Shown: piece after piece, positions 42,655 to 63,928 of the stretch
How positions within the stretch are numbered: the first letter of the stretch is position 1
How the letters are laid out: the number at the start of each line of letters is the position of its first letter
DNA from: Polytrichum commune
Lineage: Eukaryota; Streptophyta; Polytrichopsida; Polytrichales; Polytrichaceae
DNA: 64,000 nt
Assembly (NCBI GenBank): GCA_950295325.1
Contig: OX485807.1
Span: 25,021,666-25,085,665, forward strand
Reading direction: 5' to 3'
Position numbers and translations under genes: made by a program
The notes under the pieces: model-generated
Told to the model about the DNA's origin: nothing
What the model saw: the letters and a program-made list of their open reading frames with translations, nothing else
The model's database searches: none

Positions 42655-42989
42655 GGTAGAATAAGTCTAATCAAAGAAAAAATGGCTGATGGCGTTGGCG
42701 GGGAGAGCACGGCACCCGAGGACAAAATGCCGGATGTACTCCTCCCAAATGCCCGGCCCGGGACCCTTTTTACCCATACCGGAGACTGGTGGACGTTGGA
42801 ATTTGGCGGCCCCGCCAGCGAGATTCCAGGAGTGCCGTTCAACTGACTTATACCTCCGCTGGTGGGGACGCTCTTACATCGAAGGCATCCGGCTATCCCA
42901 ATGCACCTACAAGAACTTGCTTTGGAGATTTTCGAGTAGGTTTTAGTTAAGTAGTTTTCACACATGGTTATTTTGAGTCATTTAATAAA

Positions 42990-43750: not shown

Positions 43751-43763
43751 TATCGGGGTAACA
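43751..43763. repeat. Target-site duplication of the LINE, 3' side
   Basis: TATCGGGGTAACA, repeated exactly at 63,916-63,928, flanking the whole LINE-containing block. Confidence 0.75.
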
Positions 43764-44003
43764 GAAGAAGAAGAACTCCGGCCTCCTGAAGGAAGCTGGA
43801 GTGAATAAAGTGTCTGTTCGTAGAACATCCTAGGCCAAGCCTTACGGCATTGGCTTTAGATGTAAAACTACTTCGCCCCTTTCAGGACGTAGATACTATA
43901 TTTAGTAATCAATGTTAACTTTCGGTAGCTGGTGAGTTGTATGTGGTTTTTTGTTTGGGGTTTTTGGTGGGAGGAGTGAGGAATTTGCTTTAGGTGATGA
44001 AGT
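43764..44003 (-). other. LINE 3' UTR and tail
   Basis: Non-coding. The last about 125 bases contain GTTTTACATCTAAAG, GGCCTAGGATGTTCTACGAA and a hairpin (CTCCAGCTTCCT ... AGGAGGCCGGAG), and end in TTCTTCTTCTTCTG. The same blocks occur in order at 31,857-32,015, so this is the family's conserved 3' end, the region expected to be recognised by the RT. Confidence 0.7.
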
Positions 44004-44963
44004 TTAATTATGGGGGTCTTGGAGATCATTAATAGTTTGTCGGTTTTCTAACCTTCGTTTATGTATAAGTATGGAGTGCGCGTATTGTGTAGCAATTATA
44101 TTAATTTGTTTAAATGTGTTTTTGATTTTCGTGATAGGGAGCGTAAATGTTGATTCCAAGTTTTTCATTGAGGGGATATATGTTGTGCCTCTTGCTTCTG
44201 CAACTAGTACCATGAGTGGGGCCACCTTCCAACCTTTTGTGGAGATGTTGTCTATGAGTGGTTGGTATTTCATAATTTTTCTGTCTAAGGTTTCAGTGGC
44301 GAATCTGTCATTGCAATATGTGAATTCTATGAACTGTATGGTAATATTAGGTGTGGGGGTTTCTGGGGGTGGGTGGTTATATGGGTGGCCTATGATGCAT
44401 AGTATGTTGGGTTTGAGACGAGCGTTGCAGTGACATCTTTGGGAGTTACATGTACATGAGAGTAGCCATGATGGGACTATATTTTCTTGTGGTTGGTCAT
44501 TATGTATTCCTGCATTCATTAATGTGTAGTGCCTTGATGTACTGTTTGAGACAATGAGTTTACGTATTTCCCATACCGCTTTATTATGCCTTTTAGTGAT
44601 TAGTGCATGGATGTGTTGTTGTTTGCATTTAAGTAGTACATGTAGCCATGTATCGGCATCTGTCGAATTGCATATGGGGCATGTTCTTGATGGGAAGGCT
44701 TCTCTTCCAAAGAAGAGTTGTTTTCGAGCATGGCCCATATATTGACCGGTTCGGAATTTTACTAAGCATGTTTTTTGTTTATCCGTGACGTTAGGATTCG
44801 TCCAAAAGTCATTTGATAATGTTTTATCTATGTCATCATTGTCCAACCATTTGTGTAATTGATGCGTTTGATTTGCTATTGTAGCTAAGTTATGTTCATT
44901 GTCATGTTTGAGGATATGTTTGCTGAGGTGTCTAATGGGGCCTTTGTCAGGTGTTTCTTGCAT
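44004..44963 (-). pseudogene. LINE C-terminal Cys/His motif and restriction-like endonuclease domain
   Basis: A 319-residue frame. CPICNSTDADTWLHVLLKC (CX2CX9HX4C) lies about one third along, followed by KRHNKAVWEIRKLI. Then come ARLKPNILCIIG, IQFIEFTYCNDRF, KIMKYQPLIDN, and GWKVAPLMVL with EARG. This order (zinc motif, R/K-P-D, acidic residue, K..KY, GW.V) is that of the R2/Dualen restriction-like endonuclease. The expected Asp of the PD motif reads Asn here (about 44,406), consistent with a G-to-A change. The frame is shared with 44,973-45,239 across one stop (44,975-44,973). Confidence 0.7.
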
Positions 44964-44972
44964 GGAGTGCCA

Positions 44973-45676
44973 CTAGTCTTTTTGTAGATAGTATGGTGTG
45001 GGGTGTGCGTGTTCATGTGGGAGTGTAGCATCTCTGTGGTCTAGTTCACATCCTTGTTTGGCCAGTATATATGCTTGGTCATTTCCTCCTATGTTTGTGT
45101 GAGCCTTGATTTTATGTATTATGGTTATTTGTGTTCGGGATGTTAGCATTCTAAGCATGTTTTCTAGGATTATTTTGTCTGGGTGACTGTTATGGCTGGT
45201 GGGGTTTGTGTGTTTAAGAGATATAGTATGTTTAGGCAATTTGTGAATATGTATCCTGGCTCATTTCGGTATGTTGTGGTGAGGAGTTGTAGAGTGTGAT
45301 GTATAGCCATCATTTCTGCTCGGAGAATATTTTGTAGTCCTGGTAGCCTTTATGTGATTTTTAGATTTTTGAAAGGGTTGTAAATGCCGTAACCGGCTTT
45401 TTCCCGTCTCCATTGCCCATTGTTTAGCTGCTTTGGTGGTTTGAATGACCCGTCCGTGTAATAGCAGAATTGAGGCGGGTATTTAAGCGGTAGGCATTGT
45501 ATCGGGTTGATGTTCCATAGGTTGGTTGGTATTTGTGTGGTTGGCGGGGTAGGTGGAGGTGGGTAGGTGAGTTTGGCCCATTTTTTATTGCGGTTCACTG
45601 GTGTATCTGGTGGTGTTGGTGGAGCAATTTGACAGACCATTTCAGGGATTTGTAGTGTGTTTGCAGTATCGTTCAT
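44973..45676 (-). pseudogene. LINE RNase H domain
   Basis: Starts in the frame 45,676-45,350 with FCYYTDGSF (catalytic Asp), continues past one stop with RAEMMAIHHTLQ (catalytic Glu), then shifts frame near 45,240 into 45,239-44,973, with IKAHTNIGGNDQAYILAKQG. The last motif normally has Asp where Tyr is seen, and the third acidic position (FTNCLN) reads Asn, so the copy is catalytically broken. It lies between the methyltransferase-like and restriction-like endonuclease domains. Confidence 0.78.
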
Positions 45677-45772
45677 TTGTTGGATAAAGGAATTTGTTCC
45701 TATGGGTGTGTTTTTGTGATGTATGCATATTATTTGTATAGCGTGGGTTTCTGTTCTAGGTTTTGTACGTAG

Positions 45773-47050
45773 TTATGGGGGAATTGTTGGTTCTTCGTAT
45801 GTGATGGTGTCGGCTTTGAAGTGAGTTATAATATGTGAGTCTGGAAAGGGTCCATTATGTGGGTTAGGATTGTGATACCAATTTTCGTTTGGCATTACTA
45901 GTATTGTGACGGAGTTGGAGTCATTTTTGGCTGCGAGGCGGGCTTGTTGAGTTTCGGTGTTCGTGTGTGGATGTGCATAGCCATTTCCATGCCATTTATG
46001 TTGGAATGCCTTTCCAGTTGATCCAAATATTGCATCCCTAGGAAATGGGGAGTGGAATTGTCTGAGTGTAGTGGGGCATGTTACTGGTGACGAGAAATAT
46101 GAGTGTGTTATTTCGAATGTGTTTATGAGGTTTTCAAGGATGGCATTTGGGAGTGTGTATTGAGAGAGTTTAAGGGGGTCATTTTTGGGGGTTTTGTATT
46201 TATACCTTTGATATAGCCATGCTACTTCTGTTTCAAATGATTGAGTGGGTGATTCTAGGTTGTGTGATGTGTTTAGTGCTGAGTGGTATTGGTCCCATAA
46301 CCAGTTTAATCTTGTTTTCGGGATGGTAATTAAGTGGCGGCTGGTGTTATCGTAGATGTGTGCAGTGTCATGTTGGGTTTGGATAGTATACTCTGTGTTT
46401 TCAATATCATTCTCTGGGTTGCAATCGTTGATGTGTATGTGGCATAAGGGTATGGTTTGTGGTGGGGGGATGTATCTGGTGTCTCTCATTTGTTCGTGGT
46501 TGAAGTTTGTATTGAGGATGTTAGTAATCTGTTGGTGTTGTTTTTGGGTATAGTATTGTGTTAATAGCAGAATGTTGTGGTTTATGGCGTCTTGGTTGTT
46601 CCAAGGGAATAATTCTTTTTGGGGTAGCCATTTATCATAGATTATATCGTTTGGGAGTGTCCATTGGCATAGGTAAGATGTGTATTTTTTCTTGATTTTG
46701 TACTTGTCCGTGTATGCACATGGGCGGTCATTTTTTATTTTGTATATCGGGAAGTGTTTTGGGTCTTCGAGTATGTAAGGGGGTGGTTTTGGGTATTCTT
46801 CCATTATTGATGGTGGTACATAAGTGTGGTGTCTTTGGGGGTTCAGAGGTATATTATGGTTTATTATTTTATATTCATCTTTTAGGGTGTTTGGTGTCGT
46901 ATGTGTTGAGCATTGTCGTGTGCATGGGGTAAGGCATGTTGGCTTACAAAATAGTTTTCTGGCATATTCTAGTACAGTTTTCTCTAATTTAGTGGGTTTA
47001 TTGTAGTGATTTTTAAATTCTTCGTTATTCATTAGGTGTGTTCCATTGGG
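45773..47050 (-). pseudogene. LINE domain resembling the PCIF1-type adenine methyltransferase
   Basis: A 419-residue open frame running from the gypsy insertion point to a single TAA at 45,775-45,773. The first 60 residues contain a Cys-rich patch (CKPTCLTPCTRQCS). The C-terminal half reads ITHSYFSSPVTC, RDAIFGSTGKAF, KWHGNGYAHPHT and SVTILVMPNENWY. The spacing of SSPxxC, FGSxG, a G-N-G...-P- segment and a hydrophobic strand ending in PxxxW resembles the PCIF1/CAPAM (PCIF1_WW) core. HPHT stands where PCIF1 proteins have the catalytic NPPF. The same HPHT occurs in the second copy near 35,360. In the element the domain sits between RT and RNase H. The homology call is mine, from motif reading, and needs profile searches. 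Confidence 0.55.
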
Positions 47051-47055
47051 GCATG
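47051..47055. repeat. Target-site duplication of the gypsy element
   Basis: GCATG, repeated exactly at 57,464-57,468. Confidence 0.95.
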
Positions 47056-48581
47056 TGTGAGACCAAATCCACCACCCTTAAGCGTCCTAGTCCGGGTGAT
47101 GACTTTGAGAATCACATTTGTCTATCACAACATGGAACCATATGCAAGGTGATTTTCATGTTTAAATGAACATGCATTGTCTCACTCATTGTACTTTATT
47201 AATGTTGGCCTCTTGGCTTGTGCTAGAGTTGGCTTTCTCAAGAGTCCAACCCGCGGCTTTAGCCGCACATGCCCTCAATGATTTTCCCCTTGCATACTTT
47301 GACCCAACCTCCTTTGTCTTCCCCTCGCGGAAGTCCTCCACCTTCTCCATTACTTGTGCACTTGATTTATTTAATAGAGAGGATACAAGCGTTAAAAAAC
47401 GCTATTTCCCATAATCAATCCTAAGTGCAATTACTTATGAAACCCACACGTGCCTCCACCTAACCTAATGTGGCCAACTACTTATCTATAAACTAATATA
47501 GTCTAATATAGTCTATAAACTAATGTAATCATATAAACTAATCAGTCTCAGCCGCAGCTAACCAGCTACCCAAAATACAGTCCCGGCCACAGCCAACCAG
47601 CTGCCTCCGATGCAGTCGCAGCCGCAGTTAACCAGTTGCCTCTTGATACAGTCCCGGCCACAACTAACCAGCTGCCTCCAATGCAGTCGCAACCACAGCT
47701 AACCAGCTGCCTCCAATGCAATCACAACCACAGCTAACCAGCTGCCTCCAATGCAGTCGCAACTGCAGCTAACCAGCTGCCTCCAATGCAGTCGCAACCA
47801 CAGCTAACCAGCTGCCTCCAATGCAGTCGCAACCACAGCTAACCAGCTGCCTCCGATGCAGTCGCAGCCGCAGTTAACCAGTTGCCTCTTGATACAGTCT
47901 CCCCTAGCCGCTAATCGAGCATTTCCCTAAGTCTTTGTTTTCGATCCTTTACTAATGAATTAATCTAACCCACTAATTCCACTAAATAACTACCTAATCC
48001 CCACATGTTGTCTCAAGCTCTAAGAGCTCACTCCACTTGAGAGGAATTGAGAGAGAGAACTTAACTAATTAAATTCACTAAAAACTAATGTCCTACACGC
48101 GTAGCTCAAGCTTTTAAGAGCTTGCTCCCTTGAGAGCGCTTGATGAAGAGAGAGAGAAATGAGAGAAAAAACACCTTAAGTAGCAAAGAGGGAGAGAGGG
48201 AGAGAGGGGGAAAGAGGTGAGGATAGGGTGAGAGGATTGGCACCTCCAATCACAATCCTTTAACCCTCTCCTCCAAAGTAGGGACTAATCCCCATCCACC
48301 AAGCTTCCTTCTTCCCAAACTACCAAGGTGGATCCAAAAGTGGGCATTTAACTCGCGGAGCTCACCTTGCTTCACCTTACCCCCCACTCACCTAATCAAG
48401 GCATCCTCTTATTGAAGTTAAACCTTGAAATTACTACACAACACATTCTAATGCCTAAACTTAAATCCATACCACACTTCACTCTTTTTATGTTTTGTGA
48501 ATAATCATAGCACATCAAAGTCACACTAAAATTGGTTTCGAAGACTTAATCACCACATGTGGGCACCATTTTGGGCTCACA
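47056..48581 (-). repeat. 3' LTR of the Ty3-gypsy element
   Basis: 1,526 bp, starting TGTGAG and ending CTCACA on the + strand, equal in length to the other LTR and differing at one position that I noticed (48,553 C versus 57,435 T). It contains a minisatellite at about 47,543-47,900 with units like AACCAGCTGCCTCCAATGCA. The 82-residue frame inside it is present in both LTRs and has no domain; it is not called as a gene. Confidence 0.97.
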
Positions 48582-48585
48582 TAAT

Positions 48586-48600
48586 TGGCGACCATCGGGG
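48586..48600 (+). promoter_or_regulatory. PBS-like motif next to the 3' LTR, inverted orientation
   Basis: TGGCGACCATCGGGG begins four bases after the inner edge of this LTR on the + strand, the geometry of a primer-binding site, but at the wrong end for the - strand gag-pol. At the expected place the candidate is TGGGTGCGTCCGCC (55,934 down to 55,921). No polypurine tract is obvious at either inner edge. Confidence 0.35.
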
Positions 48601-48643
48601 GATGAATCCCAAAAATCACTTGCTCCCAAGGTAAGTTGCCTAG

Positions 48644-49735
48644 TTAAGCTCGGTACTCCTTACACCTACTTCCCGATGTACGAGTAGGAAAGAGCTCACC
48701 GTTCAATGTTTCCAATTGGATTGAATTATTAGGAAAAACCTCATAGACAAGGTAAGGTCCCAACCACACCGCATCGAATTTTGCCGGAAATTCAAGCTTC
48801 CGCGCATCTTGGATCATGACCATCATCCCCGGTGTTAAAGCCCTTTTCTTATGTCGTTTGTCAAAAGTAATCTTTCGCCTTCGTTGGATCGCTTCAATAT
48901 GTTGAGCCGCCATTCTCCTCCTTTCGTCAAGTGCTTCCAAATCGGTTAGTCGATTTCGTAAGGATTGACTTTCGGTAAGTCTTGCACTTACGGCCACCCG
49001 AAGTGATTCGACTTCATATTCGATTGGAAGTGTGGCTTCTAGGCCATAGACTAAAGAAAATGGTGTAGCACGCGTAGTTACCTTGTAGGTCGTACGATAT
49101 GCCCAAAGTGCCGCCGTTAATTTTGTATCCCAATTCCGCTTTGAGTCCAAAATTGTTTTGCGTAGAATACTTACCAAAATACCGTTGACTCGTTCCGTTT
49201 GTCCATTTGTTTGTGGGTGGTAAGGAGTGGTCTTCCGGTGATCGATTTGAAACCTCTCGGTCATCTCCCGGATTAAGTCGTTCAAAAAGTGAGTACCCCG
49301 GTCACTTACTAGAATTTTCGGCACTCCGAACCGAGAAATAATATTTTCGTACATGAAAGTTGCCGCATGTTCCGCCGTATCGGTCTTTACCGCTTTGGCT
49401 TCCGCCCACTTCGTAAGGTACTCCGTAGCAACTACAATATATTTCATCCCTTTTGTAGATTGAGGGTGCACCTCACCCACATAGTCAATTCCCCATTTCT
49501 CAAAAGGAATTAAAGGCAATGACACATGGAGTGGCATTTCCATCCTTAGGTCGTTCCGGGCATAACGTTGACAAGCATCGCATTTTCTCACATAATCGTG
49601 TACATCCTTAAATAGTGTGGGCCAAAAATAACCCGCCCTAAGGATTTTTTGCCCGGTGAGTTGACCGGAGAAGTGCCCGCCACATGCGCTATCGTGGCAA
49701 GCGATTAAAATCGCTTCAACCTCCGATTTCGACAC
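48644..49735 (-). CDS. Gypsy integrase segment of pol
   Basis: 363 residues. The HHCC zinc motif comes first (ACHDSACGGHFSGQ, then VRKCDACQRY). The core follows with catalytic acidic residues in WGIDYVGEV, LVSDRGTHF and the Glu of GQTERVNG. The C terminus has a GPY/F-like segment (FDAVWLGPYLVYEVF) and no chromodomain. It is separated from the upstream RNase H frame only by a TGA at 49,741-49,739, so it is part of the same polyprotein rather than an independent gene. It integrates element cDNA in the nucleus. Confidence 0.93.
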   Translation of the reverse strand: MSKSEVEAILIACHDSACGGHFSGQLTGQKILRAGYFWPTLFKDVHDYVRKCDACQRYARNDLRMEMPLHVSLPLIPFEKWGIDYVGEVHPQSTKGMKYIVVATEYLTKWAEAKAVKTDTAEHAATFMYENIISRFGVPKILVSDRGTHFLNDLIREMTERFQIDHRKTTPYHPQTNGQTERVNGILVSILRKTILDSKRNWDTKLTAALWAYRTTYKVTTRATPFSLVYGLEATLPIEYEVESLRVAVSARLTESQSLRNRLTDLEALDERRRMAAQHIEAIQRRRKITFDKRHKKRALTPGMMVMIQDARKLEFPAKFDAVWLGPYLVYEVFPNNSIQLETLNGELFPTRTSGSRCKEYRA

Positions 49736-49738
49736 ACA

Positions 49739-50812
49739 TCATCGTAAAAGACCATCGGATCCTCTCCTAAATAACCTATGGCCTACCACAACAAATTGCC
49801 TACTATTTACCCTTACTTTTCTTCTCTCCTCCTTTGTCCATTCTTCGGGCAACTTGTGGGTTGTTAGGAACTCCACAATTCCGGCATACCATTCCGGTGT
49901 CGAAGTAACTACGAATAGGCTATCATCTACCAACCTATCATCTACCGGATTTTCTCCTATCTCCTCCGACAACCTAGACAAGTGGTCGGCTTGTAAATGC
50001 ATGCGACCCGGCTTGTATTCTACCGTGTAATCAAATTCTTCTAGCAACAAGACCCACCTAGCTAACCTACCACTTAATTCCGCCTTGTTAACTAGATACT
50101 TGATAGCCATGTGGTCAACGAAAAATACAACCGGGTTACACATTAAGTAATGTCTAAATTTTTTTACCGAAAATACCATCGCTAGGCATTCACGTTCTGT
50201 GGTTGAATAATTTCGCTCCGCCAGTGTCAATTGCTTACTTGCGTAAGCTATAGGTTGATCATTCTCTTTTTCCCCCGTTGCTTGACAAAGTGCGCTCCCA
50301 ACCGCCACATTGCTCGCATCGCAATAAACATGAAAAGGCTTACCCCAATTTGGTGGCATCAATACCGGGTAAGTGCTCAACCTATCCCGTAATTCTTCAA
50401 AGGCTCTTTGACACGCATCCGTCCACTCAAATTTCACATTCTTCTTGAGCAATTGTGTAATGGGCACCGCTATCTTTGAAAATTTAGGAATGAGCTCCCG
50501 GTACCAATCCACATGCCCTAACAATTTAGATATCCCCTTAGAATTGGTTGGAGTTGCCAATTCGCTTATGGCCGCAACCTTTTCCGGATCCGGTTCTCTC
50601 CCCTTTTCACTAACTACATAACCCAACAACACTCTCCTATTGACACCCAAAAATGTCTTATCCGGGTTCAATGCTAACCTCATCTTTCTACACCTAATCA
50701 ATGCCTCCTTAACACAATGTAAGTGCTCATCCATATTACTTTGTGTACTAAAATCATCCACAAACACGGTCATGGATTTAAACAACAAGTCGGTGAAAAC
50801 ATACATCACCAA
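49739..50812 (-). CDS. Gypsy RT C-terminal part and RNase H segment of pol
   Basis: 357 residues in the same frame as the upstream gag-pol frame, following the stop at 50,818-50,816. It contains the RT catalytic FVDDFS (about 50,764-50,746), the thumb-proximal KTFLGVNRRVLLGYVVS, LLGHVDWYRELIPKFSK, and RNase H motifs FHVYCDASNVAVGSAL, IAYASKQLTLAERNY and TTERECLAMVFSVKKF. It ends with GRMHLQADHLSRL and a linker to integrase. In a working element this would be translated as one chain with its neighbours. Confidence 0.93.
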   Translation of the reverse strand: MVMYVFTDLLFKSMTVFVDDFSTQSNMDEHLHCVKEALIRCRKMRLALNPDKTFLGVNRRVLLGYVVSEKGREPDPEKVAAISELATPTNSKGISKLLGHVDWYRELIPKFSKIAVPITQLLKKNVKFEWTDACQRAFEELRDRLSTYPVLMPPNWGKPFHVYCDASNVAVGSALCQATGEKENDQPIAYASKQLTLAERNYSTTERECLAMVFSVKKFRHYLMCNPVVFFVDHMAIKYLVNKAELSGRLARWVLLLEEFDYTVEYKPGRMHLQADHLSRLSEEIGENPVDDRLVDDSLFVVTSTPEWYAGIVEFLTTHKLPEEWTKEERRKVRVNSRQFVVVGHRLFRRGSDGLLR

Positions 50813-50815
50813 CCT

Positions 50816-53800
50816 TTAAAAAGTGGCCGGGGCATTACATAATCCAAATGGCATCACAATCCATACAAAGGTTCCCCATGGTGTGGTAAAGGCCGTCTTA
50901 TGGATATCTTGAAGGGCTATGGAAATTTGATTATATCCCGCATACCCATCCATAAAAGTATACCTCACATGACCTCCAACCTCTTCAAGCAATAAGGTGA
51001 TGAAAGGTAAGGGGAAATGGTCCTTTTGTGTGCAAGAATTTAATTTTCTATAATCTATACACACCCTTAGTTTCCCATTCTTTTTCTTCACTAGGACCAT
51101 AGGAGAAACCCAATCCGTAATTTCAACCGGCTTAATAAACCCGGCCTTCAACAACCTCTCCAATTCCGCCTTCACCAACAATTGCAATTGAGGATTCATC
51201 CTCCGCTCCTTTTGTCTAATTGGTCTAGCACCCGGAATCAAAGGAATCCGGTGCTCTACCATCTCCCTAGGAATTCCTTTAAGCTCATCGTAAGACCAAG
51301 CAAAAGTATCACTAAACTCATCTATCAAATTGCTATACTCCCTAACCTCTTTCTCCCCCAATTTGGATCCCATTTTCATTTGTCGCACCTTGTCATTCTT
51401 CAATTTCACGTCCACGTACCGCCAATCCGCTTCCGACACATGTGCTTGTTCATCTTTATTTCGATACCAATCGGAAGGCACATTGGGGTAGTCTTTCACA
51501 TTTTGACCCACAACTATCCCCGTAGAAGTGGTCTTAAAATGTAAGGGCTCCTCCAATTTTGATGACTCGATAATAACCTCCTCCTCTTGAGTTCCATCCA
51601 CATGGATTAAACTAACTTCACCCTCTTCCACGTCATCTACCCAAGGTGTTAACCCACCTCTAACCCATTCTTCCTCGGTGAGCACCTCACATGGCTCCAA
51701 TGATGAACACTCTTCTAAACTAGCATTAAGAATTTTATCACCTAATTCCAATTGGTGAGATGTGACCATGACATCAAATTCCGACTCGGAGTACTCCCTT
51801 AACCATTGGGCATAATCCCCATCATCCCCATAATGGTAGAAATTAGGACCTAAGCTTCCCGATCCATAATATATGGGCCTACTACGACCTCCCGAATGCA
51901 CTTCCCCTATCAACACATCTTCATTTTTGTTAGCCTCCTTGGCATCATCTCCGTCCTTCTCGTGGTGATAGAACTTAGGGCTTAAGTTCCCCGAACTTGA
52001 GCGTATAAATGTGTGTTGACCTTTGGGTTGAACAACTCCCACTAACGCCTCATCACAGTTATCTTTAACCTCGTCATCAAATACCTCTTCCGATGGTAGA
52101 CACAATTCTTTCTTCATCCAACCTCCTAGTGACCCAATCGACACCACTACTCTATTATCCTTAGGACCATAAGTTATGGATGGTTTTGGTCCACCCCAAT
52201 TAACCATAGCATTCGCCATCCGTAGCCAAGGCCTTCCTAGCAAAATGGGAAATGTGTCCTTGTTGGAGTGCATTTTAATGACATGGAAGGTCACTAAGTA
52301 CTCTTGACCCCCGGTAGTCATCCTACAATCCTTGATCATCCCCAAAGGTGTAGTTGAACTTTGATTTGCCATATTGATGATCAAAGGTGAAGGCCCCGTG
52401 AGTCCAAGTCCTAACTTCTTCATGGTATGTTCCGGTAGTATGTTTAAACTACTCCCTCCATCAACTAATACGTTAGGAACTACCTTGTCTACAATCACAA
52501 CTTCTATCTCTATGGCTTTCACATCTCTTCCGCCTTGTGATTGGATTCTAGCGGCTACTTTAGTTTTGACCTTCCTAGCCCTCCTATGCACCGGCATCCC
52601 TTCCTTTAATGTTTTCCTTGCCGCGGGTGAAATCTCCAATAGTTGGCCGAAAGTAATATCCGCCTTGAGTGTGCTAAGATCCGCCCACAAGTCGTACCCG
52701 GTAGACTTGTCCATCTTGGAATTACCCACTCCGTCAAATTCATCCAAGGGAATTCCCGGTCCGTCCCATTCGCCCACATCGCTACCATCCAAGTCATGTA
52801 CTACATTAGGTCTCTCCCTAGCTTGTAGAATTACATTCTCCCTTTCCACATCCTTGGTAGCCCTCCTAGCTACCCTATCTAATTCGGAGAGGTTAAGCTC
52901 TTCATCCGAAGAGTAATTCCCTTGCTCTCCTATTCCTACCTCCAATGGGGCATCCCCTCTCCTAGCTCTAGTAGTTACCGCTAATGCGGGTGCTTCTTCA
53001 ACCACACCCTTACCCTTCACTAACTCATGTGTAATAGCATTGGTGTGGGGGGGCCATTGACTTTGTTCCTCTCCAATTCCCATTGGGAGAGGAAGCATGT
53101 CATCACAAGTGGCCTCCAACACACCATTCATAAACCTAACGTCTTGGGAGTTAGATGGACCCGGATCCATTGGAGGCGCTTGTCTTCCGCCATTGACATT
53201 AGGTGAACTTCCTTGTCTATTTTGTATCGGAATGTACCCGGTTGTGGTTTGCAATCCCGCCGGCGGGTGAAAAGTTTGCCTAGCATTACTATGGTCATAG
53301 TATAAGTTAGGTGGCCTAAGTTCATTAGCCGGTACTCCTTGTGGCCTAGCACCTCGCATATTATCCCTTGCTTGTTGTTGTGGATTAGCCACCGGGTAAG
53401 GGACATTAATTATTTTGTCCGGTTGGCGACACTCATCCGAGGGGTGACTCCCTCCGCAATTGCTACAATTTAACCCTTGACCTTCGGACCAACATTGTCC
53501 TTGAGCGTGCCACCTACCACAAAATGGGTGAAATTCTTTTTTCTCATAATTTTGGCCACCTTGCCCTCTAGGTTGTGATCCTCTATTGTTGCCGTTTCCA
53601 TAGTGAGGTGGCATTTGCCCTCGTTGATTTTGTTGAGGTGGATTACCGTTTCCCCTTTGGTCACGGTTTTGTCCACCTCTACAAAATTGCCGAGTGTGGC
53701 CCGGTTGGCCACATTGGACGCACCATAATCCGGAAGAATGCCTCCCCGACTCAACCGGGGGTGGAAGTCCCGGTTGTTGACTCCGGATCATTAATGACAT

Positions 53801-55033
53801 TTGATCCGTGAGGCTTTGCATTTGTTTTATCATAACCTCTTGGAATCCTAGTTGGCTAGCACCTAATCTCCTCTCAACCTCTTCTAAGTGTGGATCCGTT
53901 CTAGGGGCCGGTAGTGCCAAAAGAGGTGCCGGTTCCCTAACCGCCAAAGGTTGGGGGCCGGTATCCACCATAGCATAGGGGATTTGACCTTCGTATTTAA
54001 CCGGTTCTCCCGAAACTACTCTAGGTCGGATAGGAATGAATTGAGGGATTAATTCATCCTCCCTTCTCCATAACCTTTCGTGATCCTTATCCAAATTTTC
54101 AATATCCCTAGCCGCCCGCTTGGCATCCGCTAAGGTTAAGGGATTTCTTTCTAGAACACCCCTAATAGTTCCGGACTTGAAAAACCCTTGGATAAAAAAT
54201 TGTTTTAGTGTATCGTCGTTGAGCATAGTACCCACGAACCTAGTGTACACTAAATCAAACCTCCTAATGTAAGCCGAAATTTCTTCCTCCCTACCTTGCT
54301 TTAATGAGGATAATGCCCTTAAGGCGGTACTTTGACCTACTTCCGGCCTAAATTCATTTAGGAATTCCCGTTGTAATTGTTCCCATCCCCTAAAATGACC
54401 CTCGGCATGATCCCGATACCATTCATAGGCTTCTCCCTCTAAAGTGGTCGGAAACCACACTAACCAATAACCCGGGTTGGTTATGAGGGAGCTAGCCAAC
54501 CGTTCGATATACCGTTCCATGTGGCGAGAGGGATCCTCATCCTTGGTCCCATAAAATTTAGGGAGATGAGATGGCATATCCATCGCCGCTAAATTTTGTG
54601 GGACCACAATGGGTAGGCCTCTTGGCCTAACCAATGGGTCTATAGGAGGTACCGGAGGTATAGGCGGAATTGGGGGTATGGGTGGCGGATCCATCCCCCG
54701 CTCCTCGGCCATAGTGTCCGGTAAGGTATTTTCTAACCCCTCACCCAAGCCTATAAAATTTTCCTTTGTTAATTTATGTGCCTCCGATGAGGTTTCTCTA
54801 CCCAACTTGGAAGGAGTTACCTCTTTCTCAAGTTGAGTGTCCACTCCTAATGTCTCCACTAACAAACTAACACTAGGCTCAATATTTAAGCAACTCTCTA
54901 ATCTAATATGAGCTTCACCTACAACTTCACTAATTCTAGAAGTCCTTCTCTTACGGGTAGATTTTTCTAAGCCTAACACTAAACTCGGTTTTTGGGATCG
55001 AATCTTACCTTGCATTCCCCATAAGACGATCAA
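50816..55033 (-). CDS. Gypsy gag-protease-RT segment
   Basis: 1,405 residues. Gag capsid core from about residue 155 (LPKFYGTKDEDPSRHMERY, GEAYEWYRDH, EFRPEVGQSTALRAL); a zinc knuckle WCVQCGQPGHTRQFC near 437; and a second Cys/His-rich segment near 510 (LNCSNCGGSHPSDEC). The aspartic protease active site VDGGSSLNILP has its Asp at residue 858. RT begins near 1,280 with GFIKPVEITDWVSPMVLVKK, then LRVCIDYRKLN and FMDGYAGYNQIS. The frame stops (TAA, 50,818-50,816) right after NAPATF, in the middle of the RT palm, where family members continue. Gag packages element RNA; protease cuts the polyprotein. Confidence 0.93.
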   Translation of the reverse strand: MIVLWGMQGKIRSQKPSLVLGLEKSTRKRRTSRISEVVGEAHIRLESCLNIEPSVSLLVETLGVDTQLEKEVTPSKLGRETSSEAHKLTKENFIGLGEGLENTLPDTMAEERGMDPPPIPPIPPIPPVPPIDPLVRPRGLPIVVPQNLAAMDMPSHLPKFYGTKDEDPSRHMERYIERLASSLITNPGYWLVWFPTTLEGEAYEWYRDHAEGHFRGWEQLQREFLNEFRPEVGQSTALRALSSLKQGREEEISAYIRRFDLVYTRFVGTMLNDDTLKQFFIQGFFKSGTIRGVLERNPLTLADAKRAARDIENLDKDHERLWRREDELIPQFIPIRPRVVSGEPVKYEGQIPYAMVDTGPQPLAVREPAPLLALPAPRTDPHLEEVERRLGASQLGFQEVMIKQMQSLTDQMSLMIRSQQPGLPPPVESGRHSSGLWCVQCGQPGHTRQFCRGGQNRDQRGNGNPPQQNQRGQMPPHYGNGNNRGSQPRGQGGQNYEKKEFHPFCGRWHAQGQCWSEGQGLNCSNCGGSHPSDECRQPDKIINVPYPVANPQQQARDNMRGARPQGVPANELRPPNLYYDHSNARQTFHPPAGLQTTTGYIPIQNRQGSSPNVNGGRQAPPMDPGPSNSQDVRFMNGVLEATCDDMLPLPMGIGEEQSQWPPHTNAITHELVKGKGVVEEAPALAVTTRARRGDAPLEVGIGEQGNYSSDEELNLSELDRVARRATKDVERENVILQARERPNVVHDLDGSDVGEWDGPGIPLDEFDGVGNSKMDKSTGYDLWADLSTLKADITFGQLLEISPAARKTLKEGMPVHRRARKVKTKVAARIQSQGGRDVKAIEIEVVIVDKVVPNVLVDGGSSLNILPEHTMKKLGLGLTGPSPLIINMANQSSTTPLGMIKDCRMTTGGQEYLVTFHVIKMHSNKDTFPILLGRPWLRMANAMVNWGGPKPSITYGPKDNRVVVSIGSLGGWMKKELCLPSEEVFDDEVKDNCDEALVGVVQPKGQHTFIRSSSGNLSPKFYHHEKDGDDAKEANKNEDVLIGEVHSGGRSRPIYYGSGSLGPNFYHYGDDGDYAQWLREYSESEFDVMVTSHQLELGDKILNASLEECSSLEPCEVLTEEEWVRGGLTPWVDDVEEGEVSLIHVDGTQEEEVIIESSKLEEPLHFKTTSTGIVVGQNVKDYPNVPSDWYRNKDEQAHVSEADWRYVDVKLKNDKVRQMKMGSKLGEKEVREYSNLIDEFSDTFAWSYDELKGIPREMVEHRIPLIPGARPIRQKERRMNPQLQLLVKAELERLLKAGFIKPVEITDWVSPMVLVKKKNGKLRVCIDYRKLNSCTQKDHFPLPFITLLLEEVGGHVRYTFMDGYAGYNQISIALQDIHKTAFTTPWGTFVWIVMPFGLCNAPATF

Positions 55034-55937
55034 CCCTCACTTGACCAATCGCATCTCTCACAACCCTCCCCTCTTAATGTTTCCATTTATCTTGGTGTGA
55101 TTTAAATTTTTAGGAGGTGAGGAGAAAGACCCTGCAAGCCCACTTAAGTAAAGAAATCCCAATAAGGGATAGGCATGCTCATGTTAATTTTTGGTTAAGC
55201 CGGAGCATCACCTCCGCACTTTTCCGCAAATTAAACACTTGCCACAATACCGATTGTGAGGGGGTGACCTTCCTTGTAGATTATGTTAAAAAGTCGAGGC
55301 TTCACCCTTCGACTTCTCACACTATCCACAATTCGGGAATTACCCTCTACAACGGATAACGACAATCACGAATACAAAATGCATTCCTTAATTGGTTAAT
55401 AATTTCACTTTGAAGAAACAAACGTACCTTAAGCAATCGCATCCCCCTGTGAGTTAGCACTCCCCTCAATCGTGACTCAATGTGACAACACAACAAACTT
55501 CCTAAAATATTAATTTAATCTAGAGCATGAAATGACAACTCCCGAAACTTTGAGACTCACCCCGAGGGGAGTGTCAAAGTTCAATGTCCTAAGGTGAATT
55601 TACCCTCTAATGTTTTAATGAGCTACTCGGTTATAGGTTCCTTCTAAGTCCTTAGCAAATCCCCAAAAAGGTTGAGGACGTACCTTCGCCGCGCTCCTTC
55701 CTTAAAAATAAATTTGCGTAATTGACAATGCAATCCATTCCAAGGAATAATTGAAATACAATTAATCTAATAAATTCAAATGTAAACCCCAAAGAGAGAA
55801 CACTTACCGAGTCTCGGATGCTCCTTCCCCTCTCTCAAGTTTGTGTCTCCAAATTTTCCTAGTTGCCTCCAAGTCTCTTAGTCGCCTCCAAGTCTTGTCC
55901 CTACCTCCCGCTTCGCTCCCGGCGGACGCACCCATTA
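55034..55937 (-). other. Gypsy 5' leader
   Basis: About 900 bp between the 5' LTR and the gag frame, without a convincing ORF. A candidate primer-binding site TGGGTGCGTCCGCC starts three bases inside the LTR edge; the matching tRNA was not identified. Confidence 0.6.
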
Positions 55938-57463
55938 TGTGAGACCAAATCCACCACCCTTAAGCGTCCTAGTCCGGGTGATGACTTTGAGAATCACATT
56001 TGTCTATCACAACATGGAACCATATGCAAGGTGATTTTCATGTTTAAATGAACATGCATTGTCTCACTCATTGTACTTTATTAATGTTGGCCTCTTGGCT
56101 TGTGCTAGAGTTGGCTTTCTCAAGAGTCCAACCCGCGGCTTTAGCCGCACATGCCCTCAATGATTTTCCCCTTGCATACTTTGACCCAACCTCCTTTGTC
56201 TTCCCCTCGCGGAAGTCCTCCACCTTCTCCATTACTTGTGCACTTGATTTATTTAATAGAGAGGATACAAGCGTTAAAAAACGCTATTTCCCATAATCAA
56301 TCCTAAGTGCAATTACTTATGAAACCCACACGTGCCTCCACCTAACCTAATGTGGCCAACTACTTATCTATAAACTAATATAGTCTAATATAGTCTATAA
56401 ACTAATGTAATCATATAAACTAATCAGTCTCAGCCGCAGCTAACCAGCTACCCAAAATACAGTCCCGGCCACAGCCAACCAGCTGCCTCCGATGCAGTCG
56501 CAGCCGCAGTTAACCAGTTGCCTCTTGATACAGTCCCGGCCACAACTAACCAGCTGCCTCCAATGCAGTCGCAACCACAGCTAACCAGCTGCCTCCAATG
56601 CAATCACAACCACAGCTAACCAGCTGCCTCCAATGCAGTCGCAACTGCAGCTAACCAGCTGCCTCCAATGCAGTCGCAACCACAGCTAACCAGCTGCCTC
56701 CAATGCAGTCGCAACCACAGCTAACCAGCTGCCTCCGATGCAGTCGCAGCCGCAGTTAACCAGTTGCCTCTTGATACAGTCTCCCCTAGCCGCTAATCGA
56801 GCATTTCCCTAAGTCTTTGTTTTCGATCCTTTACTAATGAATTAATCTAACCCACTAATTCCACTAAATAACTACCTAATCCCCACATGTTGTCTCAAGC
56901 TCTAAGAGCTCACTCCACTTGAGAGGAATTGAGAGAGAGAACTTAACTAATTAAATTCACTAAAAACTAATGTCCTACACGCGTAGCTCAAGCTTTTAAG
57001 AGCTTGCTCCCTTGAGAGCGCTTGATGAAGAGAGAGAGAAATGAGAGAAAAAACACCTTAAGTAGCAAAGAGGGAGAGAGGGAGAGAGGGGGAAAGAGGT
57101 GAGGATAGGGTGAGAGGATTGGCACCTCCAATCACAATCCTTTAACCCTCTCCTCCAAAGTAGGGACTAATCCCCATCCACCAAGCTTCCTTCTTCCCAA
57201 ACTACCAAGGTGGATCCAAAAGTGGGCATTTAACTCGCGGAGCTCACCTTGCTTCACCTTACCCCCCACTCACCTAATCAAGGCATCCTCTTATTGAAGT
57301 TAAACCTTGAAATTACTACACAACACATTCTAATGCCTAAACTTAAATCCATACCACACTTCACTCTTTTTATGTTTTGTGAATAATCATAGCACATCAA
57401 AGTCACACTAAAATTGGTTTCGAAGACTTAATCATCACATGTGGGCACCATTTTGGGCTCACA
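55938..57463 (-). repeat. 5' LTR of the Ty3-gypsy element
   Basis: 1,526 bp, TGTGAG...CTCACA, essentially identical to 47,056-48,581, including the minisatellite (about 56,425-56,782). Confidence 0.97.
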
Positions 57464-57468
57464 GCATG
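57464..57468. repeat. Second copy of the gypsy target-site duplication
   Basis: GCATG immediately outside the 5' LTR; matches 47,051-47,055. Confidence 0.95.
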
Positions 57469-59640
57469 TGATGTGTTTTATTTCATATATGTTATGTAAT
57501 ATTAGCTTGTGAAGGTATTTTAGTGATAGTTCGGGGGTAAGTGTTGGGATGTTTCGTGCTTGTAACATCCATTGTGTTTCTAGTGGTGTAGGGGTGAGAG
57601 GAAAGTTTCCTTGTGTACTTGTGAGGTGGATTCCACTTGTCTTTTTCAATAGGAATAGGGATCTTGTAATTGGTGATCGCATACAGTCATGCAGTGAGAG
57701 GCGTGTTAGGTTTTGGGCTCCTCTGTGTTTAGCAAGTATGTGTTGTATTAAGCCTTTGTATATTCTACTGAGCCTTCCTTTGTCGTTTAGGGCATTTATG
57801 AGTTGTTCTCCTATACATGTTATGTATGTATTTTTTTAATAAAAAGGCTTCTGTCCCGAATATGTCATGTGGTAGTTGTGTGACGGCGTTTGACATACAT
57901 TTTGGTAATCCACATATGGTTTTGTGTAGGGCGACGATTTTCTTGTCTAGTTTTTTAATGGCCGGAAGAGAGTACGGTACGGCATAGAAGCTGTAGGCAA
58001 TACCGGCTCTTATGACTGTATCGACCATTTTTATTTTTTGTTTCATGGTCGCTGGGCATGTTATTAAAAGTTTGTTTTGTTTGGTTAATTTAGCCGTGGT
58101 GATGTGCATTTGTGTTTTCCACTGTAATGAAGGAACTAGGTTAATTCCAATGTATACATATGGTTCGTGTTGGCTAAATATGGGTATTTGTTGTTGTCTG
58201 AAATTTATATTTGCTTCTTGTAAGTGTATTTTGAAGGCTTGTGGATTTAGTTTTGACTTGTTGGGGCATCCCGTGATCGCGCATTTGGGTATACCTAGGT
58301 CCATTCCTGCCCATTCGCAGAACTTGTCTAGTTTGTCTAGTTGTAATTGTAATGATGTTACTTTGTTGGCTAGGATGGCTAAGTCATCGGCATATGCTGC
58401 GGAGTTCAACTTAGTGGTAGAGGTTTTGAAGGTATATCCATTGTTTCCCCTTTGTAACCACCGCAAGAGGGGTTCTAGAAAAATAATAAACAAGTATGGG
58501 TTTAATGTATCTCCTTGTATGGTTCCTCGTTGTATGGGGATTGGTTGTGTTTTACCAAAGTATTCTCCTATATATGTGATGGTAGATTGTGCGTAGATAT
58601 TTCCTATCAATGCTACGGCATCTTGTGGGTAGCCTAGATCTTTCATGATGGTTAGTAATCTAGCGTGATCAATTAAGCCAAAGGCATTTTTTAAGTCTAT
58701 ATATAGGATATAGATATCTTGATTTGTGAATTTGACATCTTCAAGTGCTGATATTAGAGTTTGTAGTTGCCTTGACGTACATCTCTCGGCTCGAAATCTT
58801 TCTTGGCTGTCATGTAGGATTTGATGTCTTTTTCCATATGTGGCGAGGATACTAGTGAGTGTGCTAGTAAAGAATTTGTATATTGTGTTGGCAAGAGCAA
58901 TTGGTCTGTGGTTGTTGAGGCAATATGGGTTGCCTTTCTTATACAGTAGTATGGTAGTACTTGTTTTCTAGGATGTCGGGATGCGTTTTTGTTTATAGCA
59001 ATGGGTAAAAAGGAGAAATAGGAGTGTATGGAAGCGTGGAGGCATGGACTTTAATATGGCATTAGGGATTTTGTCTGGCCCTGGGGTTTTCCCGTTTGCT
59101 AGATTTCGGAGACACATGTCGTACGTTTCTTGGTCTAGGTATGTGTGTAATGGAACATTTGGTTCACCTCTTTTTTCGATAGTATATCCGTCTAGGTCAT
59201 GCCATGGGTATTGCCTAACCCCACATGTGCAGTATTGTGGGTGATCAGGTTGGTAGTGGCATGTGGGGACTGTAGGTTTGTTAATGATAGATTGTTGGGT
59301 ATGAATTTCTTTGGCGATGTCTTCTGGGTTGGTGAGGATGTTATTATATCTATCTATAATGCAGTCTAGTGGGGGTGAATCGTTTTCTTTGAAGACCTTT
59401 TTGTTGATTTTTTTGGGGTTTTTGTCATATAGTTGTTGGTATTTGAATATGGTTTTTTTATTTGTTTTAATGAATATTCCGTTGTGATTTTTCGGGCTTC
59501 TTTTTTGGTTGTTTTTGCCTTGTTGGCTAGATCTTCTATCCAAGTATTGTGTGGTAGTGGGTGTATTGGGGGTGTTGGGAGGGTGCTATGCGTTTGGCTA
59601 TTCATTTGTTGAATGATGGGGTGGTCTCGCCAATTCAGGT
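57469..59640 (-). pseudogene. LINE reverse transcriptase
   Basis: Most of the domain lies in one frame from about 59,605 to 57,765, with a single TAG (58,970-58,968) inside RIPTS*KTSTTILLYKKGN. Motifs in order: GKTPGPDKIPNAIL (about 59,090), HRPIALANTIYKFF, LYIDLKNAFGLIDH, RGTIQGDTLNPYLFI and AAYADDLAIL (YADD at 58,395-58,384), then IGINLVPSLQWKTQ and an AGIAYSFYAVPYSLP thumb-side segment. A frameshift near 57,760 moves the connection region into 57,682-57,464, which runs up to the gypsy insertion point. The upstream part (59,543-59,100) links endonuclease and RT. This is a target-primed non-LTR RT. Confidence 0.9.
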
Positions 59641-59685
59641 TATTTTTTGTAATGTATATTATTTTCCAGGTAAGGTGGTATGTGA

Positions 59686-60810
59686 CTAAGTGTTTTTTCC
59701 ATTGTTTTTGGAGTTTCTTTGGAAGGTAGCCTCCTTGTTTAGCAATGTTGTTTGGTAAATTCGGAATTGGTGGTGCACTACATGTTTAATTTCTAGTACT
59801 ATATTAGAAATGCTATTGACGAGGGTTTCGAATGATTCACATACCATTTGCCATTGTATTGTTATCAAGGTCATATTGGTTTTAAGCAATTGTGTAAGTT
59901 CGTTTATTTGGGTTGAATTGGTCTCGAAGAACTGCATGTGAAAGTTTTCTATATTTGACTTTGGTATGGGGTTGAATATTCTTGGGGGTGGTTCCAGTTT
60001 GGGTACTGGTGTTCTGGCTATTAGTGTATTGGGTGGGATATGTAATTGTACGGGTATGTGGTCGGAATTGAGGTTTATATCTTGGTTTGTGGTTGATCTA
60101 TATTGGTTATTGTTTAGGGTGTTTATAAAGAAACCGTCTATTAGGCTATTGTGCGTGTAGTTGTTTCCTCCTTGTCTTGAGAATGTGGAATTTGTTGTAA
60201 CGTATGTTAGATCTAGGTTGTCTGTAAATGCCCTCCATTGATAGTCTTCTGCTTGGGGTGGTATAGTTTGTTGGTCGTTTTGTCTTCCTATGAGTGCTAT
60301 GTCTCGGTTAAAGTCGCCACATAATACATAGGCGTGATTGGGATGTGCATTAATTTGTTCAACTATGGTGGTTTGTATGGTGGGAATGAGGGGTAGATCT
60401 TCATCGTGGGATGGCATATACATGTTTATTAATAGCCATGGTTGGAGGGGTTGGTTTACTATACGTATTATCTGAAGAAAAGGTGATATGTCTGCGGGAG
60501 TGGGTATTTTAGATATGTTACCAGGGTACGCATGGTTATTGTGGATGAGAGTGAGTAGACCGCCTCTGTGATTCTAATGTGTCATTCTTTGTCGTATAGT
60601 ACGTGTGATGTTGTGCGTATTGTTGAAGAAGAGTTTGTATTGTGGGAAGATGTTTTGAATGTATTTGGTGGATTTTATGGCAGTAAGTTTGGTTTCTTGT
60701 ATAGTTATGGCTGTTGGGGGGTATCGGTAGTGGGTTAGTAGCTCGTGGAGGCATGGCATTGCCGTGTTGAGTGACGCGGCATTCCATGTTATGATGTATG
60801 TTTCTTGGCT
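59686..60810 (-). pseudogene. LINE APE-type endonuclease
   Basis: One frame with a single TAG at 60,576-60,574. Motifs of the apurinic/apyrimidinic-like endonuclease in order: IITWNAASLN (about 60,800), AITIQETKL, RGGLLTLIHNN, NMYMPSHD, YVLCGDFNRD (60,318-60,307 for GDFN), LIDGFFIN, and NSDHIPVQLHI (SDH at 60,066-60,058). Together these supply the Asn, Glu, Asp/Asn and Asp-His residues of the catalytic site. The domain nicks target DNA to prime reverse transcription. It is out of frame with the upstream 2A-containing frame and with the downstream RT frame. Confidence 0.9.
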
Positions 60811-61142
60811 TGTGGGTGTTATTGGTATAGGTGATAGTATTTGGTTGTGTACTATCGGGGGAAGGGGTAGGGTATGTGTATTCTGTGATAGGTTCTGTGC
60901 ATCTTAATACTTCTATAAGTAATTGTTGGGGTACGTATGGGAACGTGTCCTGTAGGTCCTGAAGATTGGGTGGTATGACGTGTCGGTGTATATAGGCATA
61001 TAGCTGATGGTGTATTGTGTTTGGGAGAGATATTTTATCTTGATGTGTAGACATGAGTTGTGTATATGGGTGCGGGGTTTCAACATGTCTTTTTGGCGGA
61101 TTAGGTAAATTTGCCATTTTTTCTAATATTTGTGCGGCCCAA

Positions 61143-61916
61143 TTAGGCGTTGGTTGGTTGTTGTAGGTATGCATTGCAATCTTTGGTGGAGGGGCTCATT
61201 GTTACAATTAGGGCGTATATTAGTCTAGGGGGTGGGTGGTTGGTATTTTGTTGTATTTTGTTGTGTAAGTGTGGGAGTGAGGATGCAACTTGTTCGTGGA
61301 GGGGGTGTGTATTTTGGAATAATGGTTTGAAGTTAGTGGCTAGGTGTTGGTATTCTGGTTGTAGCTTTATAGTGCTAGGTATAAAGTAGGTTGAGTATCG
61401 TCTATTATGAGCGGTTGGATGATTTTGTATTATATTAGGCATTGGGCCGGGATGAGGTTCAATGTCTCCACAACACAATAATGCTAATTGATTAATAAAG
61501 TGATATCCTAGGTATTGTTTTACTTTTGATTTTCGTTTGTTTATTTTATAGTATGTTATTAATATGTATTTACTTGTAGTGAATATATTAGGTAGGGCAT
61601 GTATTATTTTCTGAGATTGTGTAGGGAGGTAGTGTGTGAATTTGGTTTATTTGTGTATAGTCCGTGTGATTGTATTAAAAGTTTGTTGAAAGGTGTGATA
61701 GTGTGGAAAAGTCTTTTGTTTGGTTTTGTGGCAAGGCCGATAGGCTGAGCCCATTTGGTGTTGTGTGTGCCATATTATAGGGGGTTTTGCAAGGTGTAGA
61801 TTAAAGTATGTGAGTTGTTCTTGTGTATGGTTGAAAGTGTAATGTTGTTTTTCCCGTATGTTAGGATAGTGGTTTAATATTTGGTCTTTGATTTTGATTG
61901 TAAGTTTAACTATCAA
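61143..61916 (-). pseudogene. LINE N-terminal region with a 2A-like motif
   Basis: The frame 61,916-61,647 and the frame containing 61,478-61,143 are in the same phase, separated by one stop at 61,649-61,647. It is rich in Lys, Thr, Gln and His, with no recognised fold. CCGDIEPHPGP (61,469-61,444 for GDIEPHPGP) resembles the 2A/2A-like consensus D-x-E-x-N-P-G-P found near the N termini of several LINE proteins, with His in place of Asn. A further frame (61,174-60,536) bridges to the endonuclease by frameshift. Confidence 0.6.
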
Positions 61917-61977: not shown

Positions 61978-63915
61978 TTGTATTATGTGTGTTTGCATAA
62001 CAACAACTTGAATACCCTATCCAAAGAGTGTGAGAGGAGACACGGTGAGAGGGTTTCCAATATGGGGTGGCTACTATGAGCCATAAGACAAGAGCAAAGA
62101 TAGTTGCATATGCAACCTTCATATTTCCTCCTAACTTGACAAAAAAGAAATTGCTATGTGACTACTTGTTGTGTGTGTGCACTTAAATCTATGTGCAATG
62201 AGTGGTTAGGGGTCTTATCTGGGATGGGGTTTTATCGCACAGTGATCCTCCAGCAGCTTGACTTCTGTTGTGCCTCCAGTAGCTCCAAAGTTGATCACAC
62301 TTCCGCAGCAACTTTTGTTTGCTTACAACTACTCAAAAATGTAGGGGCAGCTTCTTAGGCGATCATACTTGTACAAAGAGGGTACATGCAACTTCTAGCT
62401 GGTCTCCCTTCGATGAAGCAAAAGTGTGCGGGGAGCTCTTTGGCACTCTAACTTTGTCTCACTTCGGCGTACATAGAGTGTGCATGTAACTTTTAGCTGG
62501 TCTCCCTTCGGTGAAGCAAAAAGTTTGCGGGCAGCTTTCAATTGCCCAGCTTCGTTGCTCCGCAGCCTCAGCTTTACTTCTCCACGGCCTCAGCTTCACT
62601 TTCGTAGCATAGTTCACAGCCTCAGCTTTTTCTCCGCAGCCTCGGCTTCAAATTCCTCACCTTTCGCAGCAGAGTTCTTCTTCTCCGCAGCCTCGGCTTA
62701 AAACTCTTCACCTTTCGCAGTAGAGTTCTTCTTCTCCGCAGCCTCGGCTTAAAAGTCTTCTCCTTTTGCAGCAGAGTTCCGCATAATACTAAGTCTATAG
62801 CCTCCTGAGTTTCGATTTTGTTGAGGTAACAACAGATCTTCGGGTCTGAGTCCTCCTGCCTTCTCCGTAGTCAACTACGCAATGTGTCTGAGTTATCAGT
62901 AGCCTTCCTGATCTCTTGCATAGTCTCTGCCTTTACCGAGGAGGGAAGTATAAGGCTGGGGCTGGACAGTGGTTCCGATTTGCAGGAAATTCCGATCTAT
63001 GAATTTGCTTGGTCAGTGTGATCTAAGTTCACTCAATCCAAACTTTCCACTTTCTTTGTACTCTAAGGGCCTGATCTCAAGGGATCCGGGAGTGACGATC
63101 CCTTTAATCTCTGTAGCAACTAGTCTCAATAATTTTCAGCGACGTCTAATCACAGTAGTAACTTCTACTATTGGTAGCAATCTAACAGTAATGTCACTCA
63201 GTCAGATCTGTGAGAGGGGACGATCCTAGATCTATTGGCAACTTATCTATCACCACTTCGGTATCAGCGGCACTTCAGTGTTCGGCGACGCCAGCAGGCT
63301 TCAGTATCAGCTTCAGTACAAGCAGGTCGGCAGCTTCAGTATCAGCAGGTCGACTACAGATGGACTTCGGGGAAAGAAGTAACCTTCGATATCGGTAGGC
63401 AACTTCAGATAGATTGCAGGGAAGCGAGCAGAGATAGATCTCTCCTGTGATCGCAGTAGGGTTTCGGTGGCGCAAGCAGCACTAGTTCGGTGGTGGCAGC
63501 AGTAGGATTTTGGTGGCGTAGGCAGCACGAGTTCGTTGGTAATGGCAGGTCGGGTGCAGATCTGGTATAGATGTCTTCTAAGGCTTCGGTGGAGTGCGGC
63601 TCTGGTGAGAATGAGAAGACAGCGAGACTGGGTATTGCATGCGGCAGCGGTAGCTTCTTTATATTGTTGAGTGTGGGTTCCGCGGTGATAGGGTTTTGGT
63701 GCAGGGTGCCCTTTCCACTGCTGAGAAGGTGGGTGGCTGGGGAGATGCGAGGAGCAACACTTTGCCGCTTCAACTCTGTCCCTCCCCAAGCCTCCAGCAG
63801 CCTTTCGGCGCTTCAAGGGTTGCCCGACACCTCTTTCCCTCCTATTTCATTCGCTCACAGCTTCGCCATGAAGGCCCCAACTAGTGCAACCTAATCATCG
63901 AGATCAAAGCACTCT
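61978..63915 (-). other. Probable LINE 5' UTR with tandem repeats
   Basis: More GC-rich than the coding part. It holds a roughly 98-bp duplication (CTGGTCTCCCTTCGRTGAAG, near 62,400 and 62,497) and three copies of a 60-bp unit (TTCTCCGCAGCCTCGGCTT; about 62,630-62,770). Quasi-repeated GGTTTCGGTGGCGCAAGCAG-type blocks lie near 63,460-63,530. A 167-residue - strand frame (63,816-63,313) consists of these repeats and has no recognised domain. It is assigned to the LINE because the target duplication lies outside it; it could instead be a separate inserted sequence. Confidence 0.45.
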
Positions 63916-63928
63916 TATCGGGGTAACA
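63916..63928. repeat. Target-site duplication of the LINE, 5' side
   Basis: TATCGGGGTAACA, matching 43,751-43,763; followed directly by the right end of the host TIR element. Confidence 0.75.

Follow-up and report, generated by a model that had tools for sequence, protein, structure and literature searches.

R2 retrotransposons have a ribosomal DNA target site and are not known to carry APE-type endonuclease, RNase H, or any segment resembling the methyltransferase PCIF1/CAPAM, and L1 long interspersed nuclear elements (LINEs) are not known to carry the restriction-like endonuclease (RLE). APE and RLE occur together in Dualen/RandI elements, which are defined by this combination and for which RNase H and an intermediate position, underpinning an argument for APE replacing RLE in LINE evolution, have been reported (available sections of PMC4640811). 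In the accessible part of PMC4438587, these elements are listed for green algae only, and (ATT)n and (CTATTT)n are the 3' repeats given for algal RandI (PMC3747384, excerpt). In the window analyzed here, a 64,000-nucleotide stretch of Polytrichum commune contig OX485807.1, one non-long terminal repeat (non-LTR) retrotransposon spans positions 43764 to 63915 on the - strand. It belongs to an abundant dual-endonuclease family of 12.3 to 13.2 kb at full length. Like Dualen/RandI, this family combines APE with RLE, carries RNase H, and has a short tandem-repeat 3' end ((TTC)n, not poly(A)); unlike the green-algal elements, it inhabits a 408-Mb plant genome, and it contains a PCIF1/CAPAM-like segment that may set it apart from them. 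An R2-type RLE fold with a CCHC zinc knuckle is shared with R2, from which the family differs in its APE, RNase H, and PCIF1-like segment and in flanks that differ between copies. RNase H in a plant LINE is also described for L1 (available sections of PMC4640811), from which the family is set apart by its RLE and by a reverse transcriptase (RT) that lies apart from human L1 in the tree described below.

The initial annotation had proposed that, with a gypsy insertion set aside, a single - strand element carries APE, RT, PCIF1-like, RNase H, and RLE domains, and this composition was borne out in the window and in genomic copies with open frames. In the window copy, Pfam matches were obtained in separate reading-frame pieces (Exo_endo_phos_2, 4.6e-8; RVT_1, 4.8e-26; PCIF1_WW, 1.1e-10), and a pattern scan revealed the APE motifs TWNAASLN, QETKL, MYMP, GDFN, and SDH, as well as YADD, RNase H motifs, a CX2CX9HX4C knuckle, and an RLE core (Table 1). 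Less damaged copies, for which a search of the host genome had been suggested, were found open at loci L009 (2,169 codons) and L055 (2,900 amino acids [aa]). The L009 frame contained Pfam domains in the order APE, RT, PCIF1_WW, and RNase H, with RLE motifs at the frame end; three tandem GDI..NPGP 2A-like motifs lay in the frame just upstream, ahead of the APE domain (L009:7091-9034). The open reading frame (ORF) of L055 starts with ATG and has RT, PCIF1_WW, and RNase H above Pfam cut-offs, with patterns corresponding to GDIKPNPGP (position 552), APE motifs (780 to 1023), FGSLG (2227), HPH (2245), a CCHC knuckle (2677), and the RLE core (2766 to 2815). Catalytic motifs of both nucleases are present in both open copies. 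As seen in sequence and models, the ORF2 polyprotein comprises, from N to C terminus, one or more 2A-like peptides, APE, RT, a linker with a beta/helix segment, a PCIF1/CAPAM-derived methyltransferase fold, RNase H, and finally a zinc knuckle followed by an R2-type RLE.

Table 1. Features of the retrotransposon copy and of its gypsy insertion in the window
Feature	Position(s)	Strand	Basis or remark
3' copy of target-site duplication, TGTTACCCCGATA, 13 bp	43751..43763	-	Direct repeat
Element 3' terminus: hairpin 43776-43801, then (TTC)4	43764..43801	-	Sequence; similar terminus in other copies
Zinc knuckle (44625-44681) and R2-type RLE	44004..44972	-	KPN for relatives' KPD at 44400-44414
RNase H remnants	45080..45480	-	Outer limits approximate; TDGSF 45443-45457, FTN for FTD 45230-45247
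PCIF1/CAPAM-like methyltransferase-fold segment	45776..46430	-	Outer limits approximate
PCIF1-like segment motifs	FGSTG 46013-46027; AHPH 45965-45976	-	AHPH replaces ANPPF
Conserved beta-strand/helix segment	46530..46753	-	Chromodomain-like by eye alone
Gypsy LTR retrotransposon inside element	47056..57463	-	LTRs 47056-48581 and 55938-57463
Gypsy target duplication GCATG, 5 bp	47051-47055 / 57464-57468
RT and its N-terminal part	57765..59585	-	Broken frames; YADD 58383-58394
APE-type endonuclease	59980..60800	-	All five motifs sought present; outer limits approximate
2A-like (StopGo) peptide remnant GDIEPHPGP	61443..61469	-
5' region of element	61984..63915	-	Comparison with other genomic copies
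5' copy of 13-bp target-site duplication, TGTTACCCCGATA	63916..63928	-	Direct repeat bounding element

Pfam profiles recovered APE, RVT_1, and PCIF1_WW in the window and RNase H in L009 and L055 but not RLE. The resemblance of the C-terminal region to restriction-like endonucleases, also claimed initially, was upheld by fold search, which identified an R2-type fold in the RLE with its zinc knuckle. Pfam and PDB sequence searches with the lone RLE ORF returned nothing, and R2 was likewise absent from the sequence matches of a profile built from 22 relatives (20 matches, the best to a designed protein and the next to RNase H chains); only the fold search recovered it.

A firm grouping of the RT with L1 or RTE, which would have counted against the initial annotation, was not seen. 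In a small tree of nine family members, three R2 elements, one L1 (human), and one plant RTE, the branch leading to L1 plus RTE separated these two from R2 and the family RT (support, 97/96), and a sister relationship to L1 or RTE was rejected with one reference each (p-AU = 0.034 and 0.031, respectively). This placement, relative to R2, L1, and RTE references, fits the intermediate position reported for Dualen. The best PDB matches of the RT were R2 chains; the plant RTE likewise matched an R2 chain best (phmmer), so phmmer bits alone cannot place the RT. An RHNK-like stretch aligned with R2 in a match lacking significance.

The genome searched was that of the window itself, which totals 407.8 Mb; its 64 contigs include seven of 42 to 78 Mb. 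All 124 scored candidates for the RLE ORF (from 5,689 first-look candidates) and all 150 for PF12237 (from 697) matched, and both counts are lower bounds; the longest open frames among the PF12237 matches were 2,924, 2,919, 2,663, and 2,625 aa. Among 3' flanks taken from 20 copies, GGAG(TTC)n was found in 18, L050 had the variant AGAG(TTC)n, and L053 had none. The 17 ends that were compared passed into unlike flanking sequences, including that of L053, which ended before the hairpin. Nine copies were taken for a duplication search, and eight were left, as L050 was unread owing to its variant tail. Five of the eight showed a 12- to 14-bp match between the 3' flank and an upstream place, delimiting elements of 12.25, 12.45, 12.48, 12.77, and 13.17 kb, and matches of at least 12 bp occurred in 2 of 72 control comparisons of each flank with the upstream parts of other copies. 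Together with the unlike flanks, these matches therefore indicate that integration yields 12- to 14-bp duplications at unlike sites.

Selection was assessed from dN/dS for 15 of 19 prepared sequences (both halves of the window copy were excluded beforehand, as were L023 and L024, two close but decayed copies); pairs were dropped when dS was ≤0.05 or saturated, and the pairs, being related by descent, are non-independent. At dS ≥0.3, median dN/dS was 0.055 for RT (24 pairs, 11 copies) and, with 15 copies each, 0.079 for RLE (41 pairs), 0.087 for the PCIF1-like segment (38 pairs), 0.095 for APE (59 pairs), and 0.096 for RNase H (66 pairs). Constraint on the PCIF1-like segment is therefore comparable to that on APE, RNase H, and RLE, and RT is more tightly constrained.

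The methyltransferase-like module of the initial annotation held up as a fold (PF12237 above the cut-off and CAPAM fold, from Pfam and fold search, respectively) but not in its NPPF catalytic motif, which is replaced. NPPF (human residues 553 to 556) is essential to PCIF1, and its mutation lowers activity, according to the available portions of PMC10544176 and PMC6318281. Among 103 database relatives of the window PCIF1 piece, the stretch after FGSxG that is equivalent to NPPF was mostly AHPH; in the 71 relatives readable at this position, HPH (55), HPY (3), HPN (3), HPR (3), YPH (3), HPP (2), HPT (1), and HSH (1) were found, and none had NPP(F/Y/W) there. The other 32 were unreadable at this place, with HLH in two of them, and a few relatives have NPPY or SPPY at other places. 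FGSxG and the preceding F-SP...C...SPF stretch were conserved. The equivalence of NPPF and HPH was drawn from fold alignment ranges and from the Pfam match of relative P0124, which spans the position; sequence alignments of the segment end before it, and the window Pfam match ends just short of it. The segment differs from the cap m6Am methyltransferase PCIF1/CAPAM in the replacement of NPPF, mostly by HPH, and in its location within a retrotransposon polyprotein. Judged from these sequences, it has most likely lost N6-adenosine methylation activity and persists as a module that binds nucleic acid. This reading is rated above one with continued methylation, since it is the catalytic motif itself that has been replaced.

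Taken as a whole, it appears fairly probable that the window holds a dead copy of an abundant dual-endonuclease LINE with two-nickase integration, in which the CAPAM-like segment acts as a non-methylating binding module. The architecture, selection, ends, duplications, and motif loss are seen in sequence and models, and we infer the division of labor between the nucleases, recognition of RNA, the role of the CAPAM-like segment, and 2A activity. Ribosome skipping at the 2A-like peptide would release the enzymatic part, and the protein would recognize its own RNA through the 3' hairpin/(TTC)n end. In target-primed reverse transcription, one nuclease would nick the first strand and the RT would prime from the nick; RNase H would then strip the RNA, and the other nuclease would nick the second strand 12 to 14 nucleotides off, giving rise to duplications at integration sites without shared sequence. 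The CAPAM-like segment would perhaps hold the template by its capped 5' end.

Several points weigh against this explanation. At E ≤ 0.1, L055 had no Pfam match to an APE family; the APE call there relies on motifs and on 58 to 92% identity with APE in 17 further sequences, the window copy among them, and the activity of both APE and RLE is predicted from sequence and models. The RT tree is weak because of long branches and five references. Three of the eight copies searched for duplications had matches of only 8 to 9 bp, the control level. Among close pairs (dS <0.3), the PCIF1-like segment had the highest median dN/dS of seven parts (0.26; APE, 0.21; RT, 0.155; RNase H, 0.10; RLE, 0.079 [7 pairs]), a value that dead copies among these pairs may raise. 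Conservation of the segment could also be compatible with catalysis by a new motif, so that loss of NPPF is no proof that methylation was lost.

A single nuclease domain suffices in other LINEs, and one nuclease alone might cleave here while the other is retained as a DNA-binding domain; this is unlikely, given that both sets of catalytic motifs are present in L009 and L055 and that APE and RLE are both under purifying selection. It is quite improbable that the segment still methylates the RNA or DNA of the element through a catalytic loop rewritten to HPH, for example, to escape silencing or favor translation. Such an enzyme would fit the purifying selection seen at dS ≥0.3, near that of APE, RNase H, and RLE, the conservation of FGSxG and F-SP...C...SPF, and an HPH replacement that is itself conserved and not random, but we know of no N6-adenosine methyltransferase with HPH. 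The reduced activity of NPPF-mutated PCIF1 (PMC6318281 and PMC10544176, in part) also argues against it. An origin of the domains from several nested elements, as might be read from the gypsy-split window copy with its broken frames, can practically be dismissed, since the full set lies in single natural open frames (L009 and L055), two other genomic copies are colinear across the gypsy site without the insertion (identities on the two sides, 97.4/96.3% and 94.7/93.1%), and 13 of the 103 PCIF1-piece relatives have PF12237 and PF00075 in one protein (77 have precomputed PF12237).

We suggest tentatively, as a possible rather than a probable history, that a dual-endonuclease LINE lineage captured a cellular cap methyltransferase, rebuilt NPPF into HPH, and kept the segment under selection as a working component of integration. 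The segment might read RNA near the cap and carry the 5' end of the template to the cut site, or it might be an enzyme that uses a new catalytic motif. Dual-endonuclease LINEs are already known (Dualen/RandI); no description of a PCIF1-like module inside one, or of PCIF1 joined to a retrotransposon ORF, was found in the open-licence papers searched, and the accessible portion of PMC8868631 makes no mention of transposons. An abundant plant lineage with open copies reaching 2,900 aa or more makes the assignment of each strand to a nuclease testable. A CAPAM-like segment that lacks NPPF and is maintained by selection within a retrotransposon could tie integration to the RNA cap, and the architecture could shed light on the way such elements cut their targets and copy themselves into them.

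Searches of the protein database yielded matches for 254 of 406 candidates with the window RLE ORF (E ≤ 1e-3), 103 of 1,170 with the PCIF1 piece, and 565 of 3,147 with the RT; the best 120 of 254 RLE relatives and the best 120 of 565 RT relatives were listed. Many database relatives may be copies from related genomes. Relative P0179 is filed under a “Candidatus Nitrosocosmicus” metagenome-assembled genome and probably represents eukaryotic DNA misassigned to an archaeon. No relative was found in scans of viral_contigs, genome_contigs, and phages, and the plasmid scan gave one weak RT match, in a decayed RTE-like element (L057, NZ_CP104070.1). That sequence is labeled as an Alicyclobacillus plasmid (39,760 bases, two annotated features), and the RTE-like element, which we take to be of plant type, is probably a contaminant. 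A candidate host PCIF1 gene (L056, C1:62.8 Mb) proved to be an element fragment with HPH and was rejected; among the PF12237 matches, it was the only extra candidate read for this purpose.

On its sequence, the window copy is judged dead, with broken frames, altered motifs, and a loss of ~2.4 kb that holds an upstream ORF in the copies at C1:38.5 Mb and C1:54.95 Mb. Its decay is seen in RNase H (FTN versus FTD in open copies), RLE (KPN versus KPD in relatives), and the 2A-like motif (HPGP versus NPGP in L055). Full-length copies have the extra upstream ORF, of which 1,241 codons are open in the C1:71.6-Mb copy, and a 418-aa part of it from the C5:46.27-Mb copy had no Pfam family reaching the cut-off. 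The upstream ORF differs between subfamilies (L024, L022, and L011, with upstream stretches L034, L032, and L027), and some of these ORFs start with a hydrophobic, signal-peptide-like MKVA.AT stretch. Three tandem units of 51 bp lie in the 5' region of the window copy (62626-62778). A chromodomain was considered for the segment before PCIF1, and predicted secondary structure was the sole support for it: Pfam and PDB sequence searches gave no useful match and no chromodomain, and in the fold search the segment was not resolved on its own.

The gypsy LTRs (1,526 bp each) differ at 1 position, and the insertion is therefore recent. Each LTR contains 35-bp tandem units, and the gypsy interior has one frame open over 1,406 codons, followed by shorter ones. 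Elsewhere in the window, a 503-aa ORF (41155-42666) resembles what we take to be a plant Harbinger-type transposon-associated protein, and ORFs at 8913-9470 and 19512-23896 look like plant exons, presumably from DUF506 and UTP14 genes, respectively, the sole host-gene clues noticed in the window.
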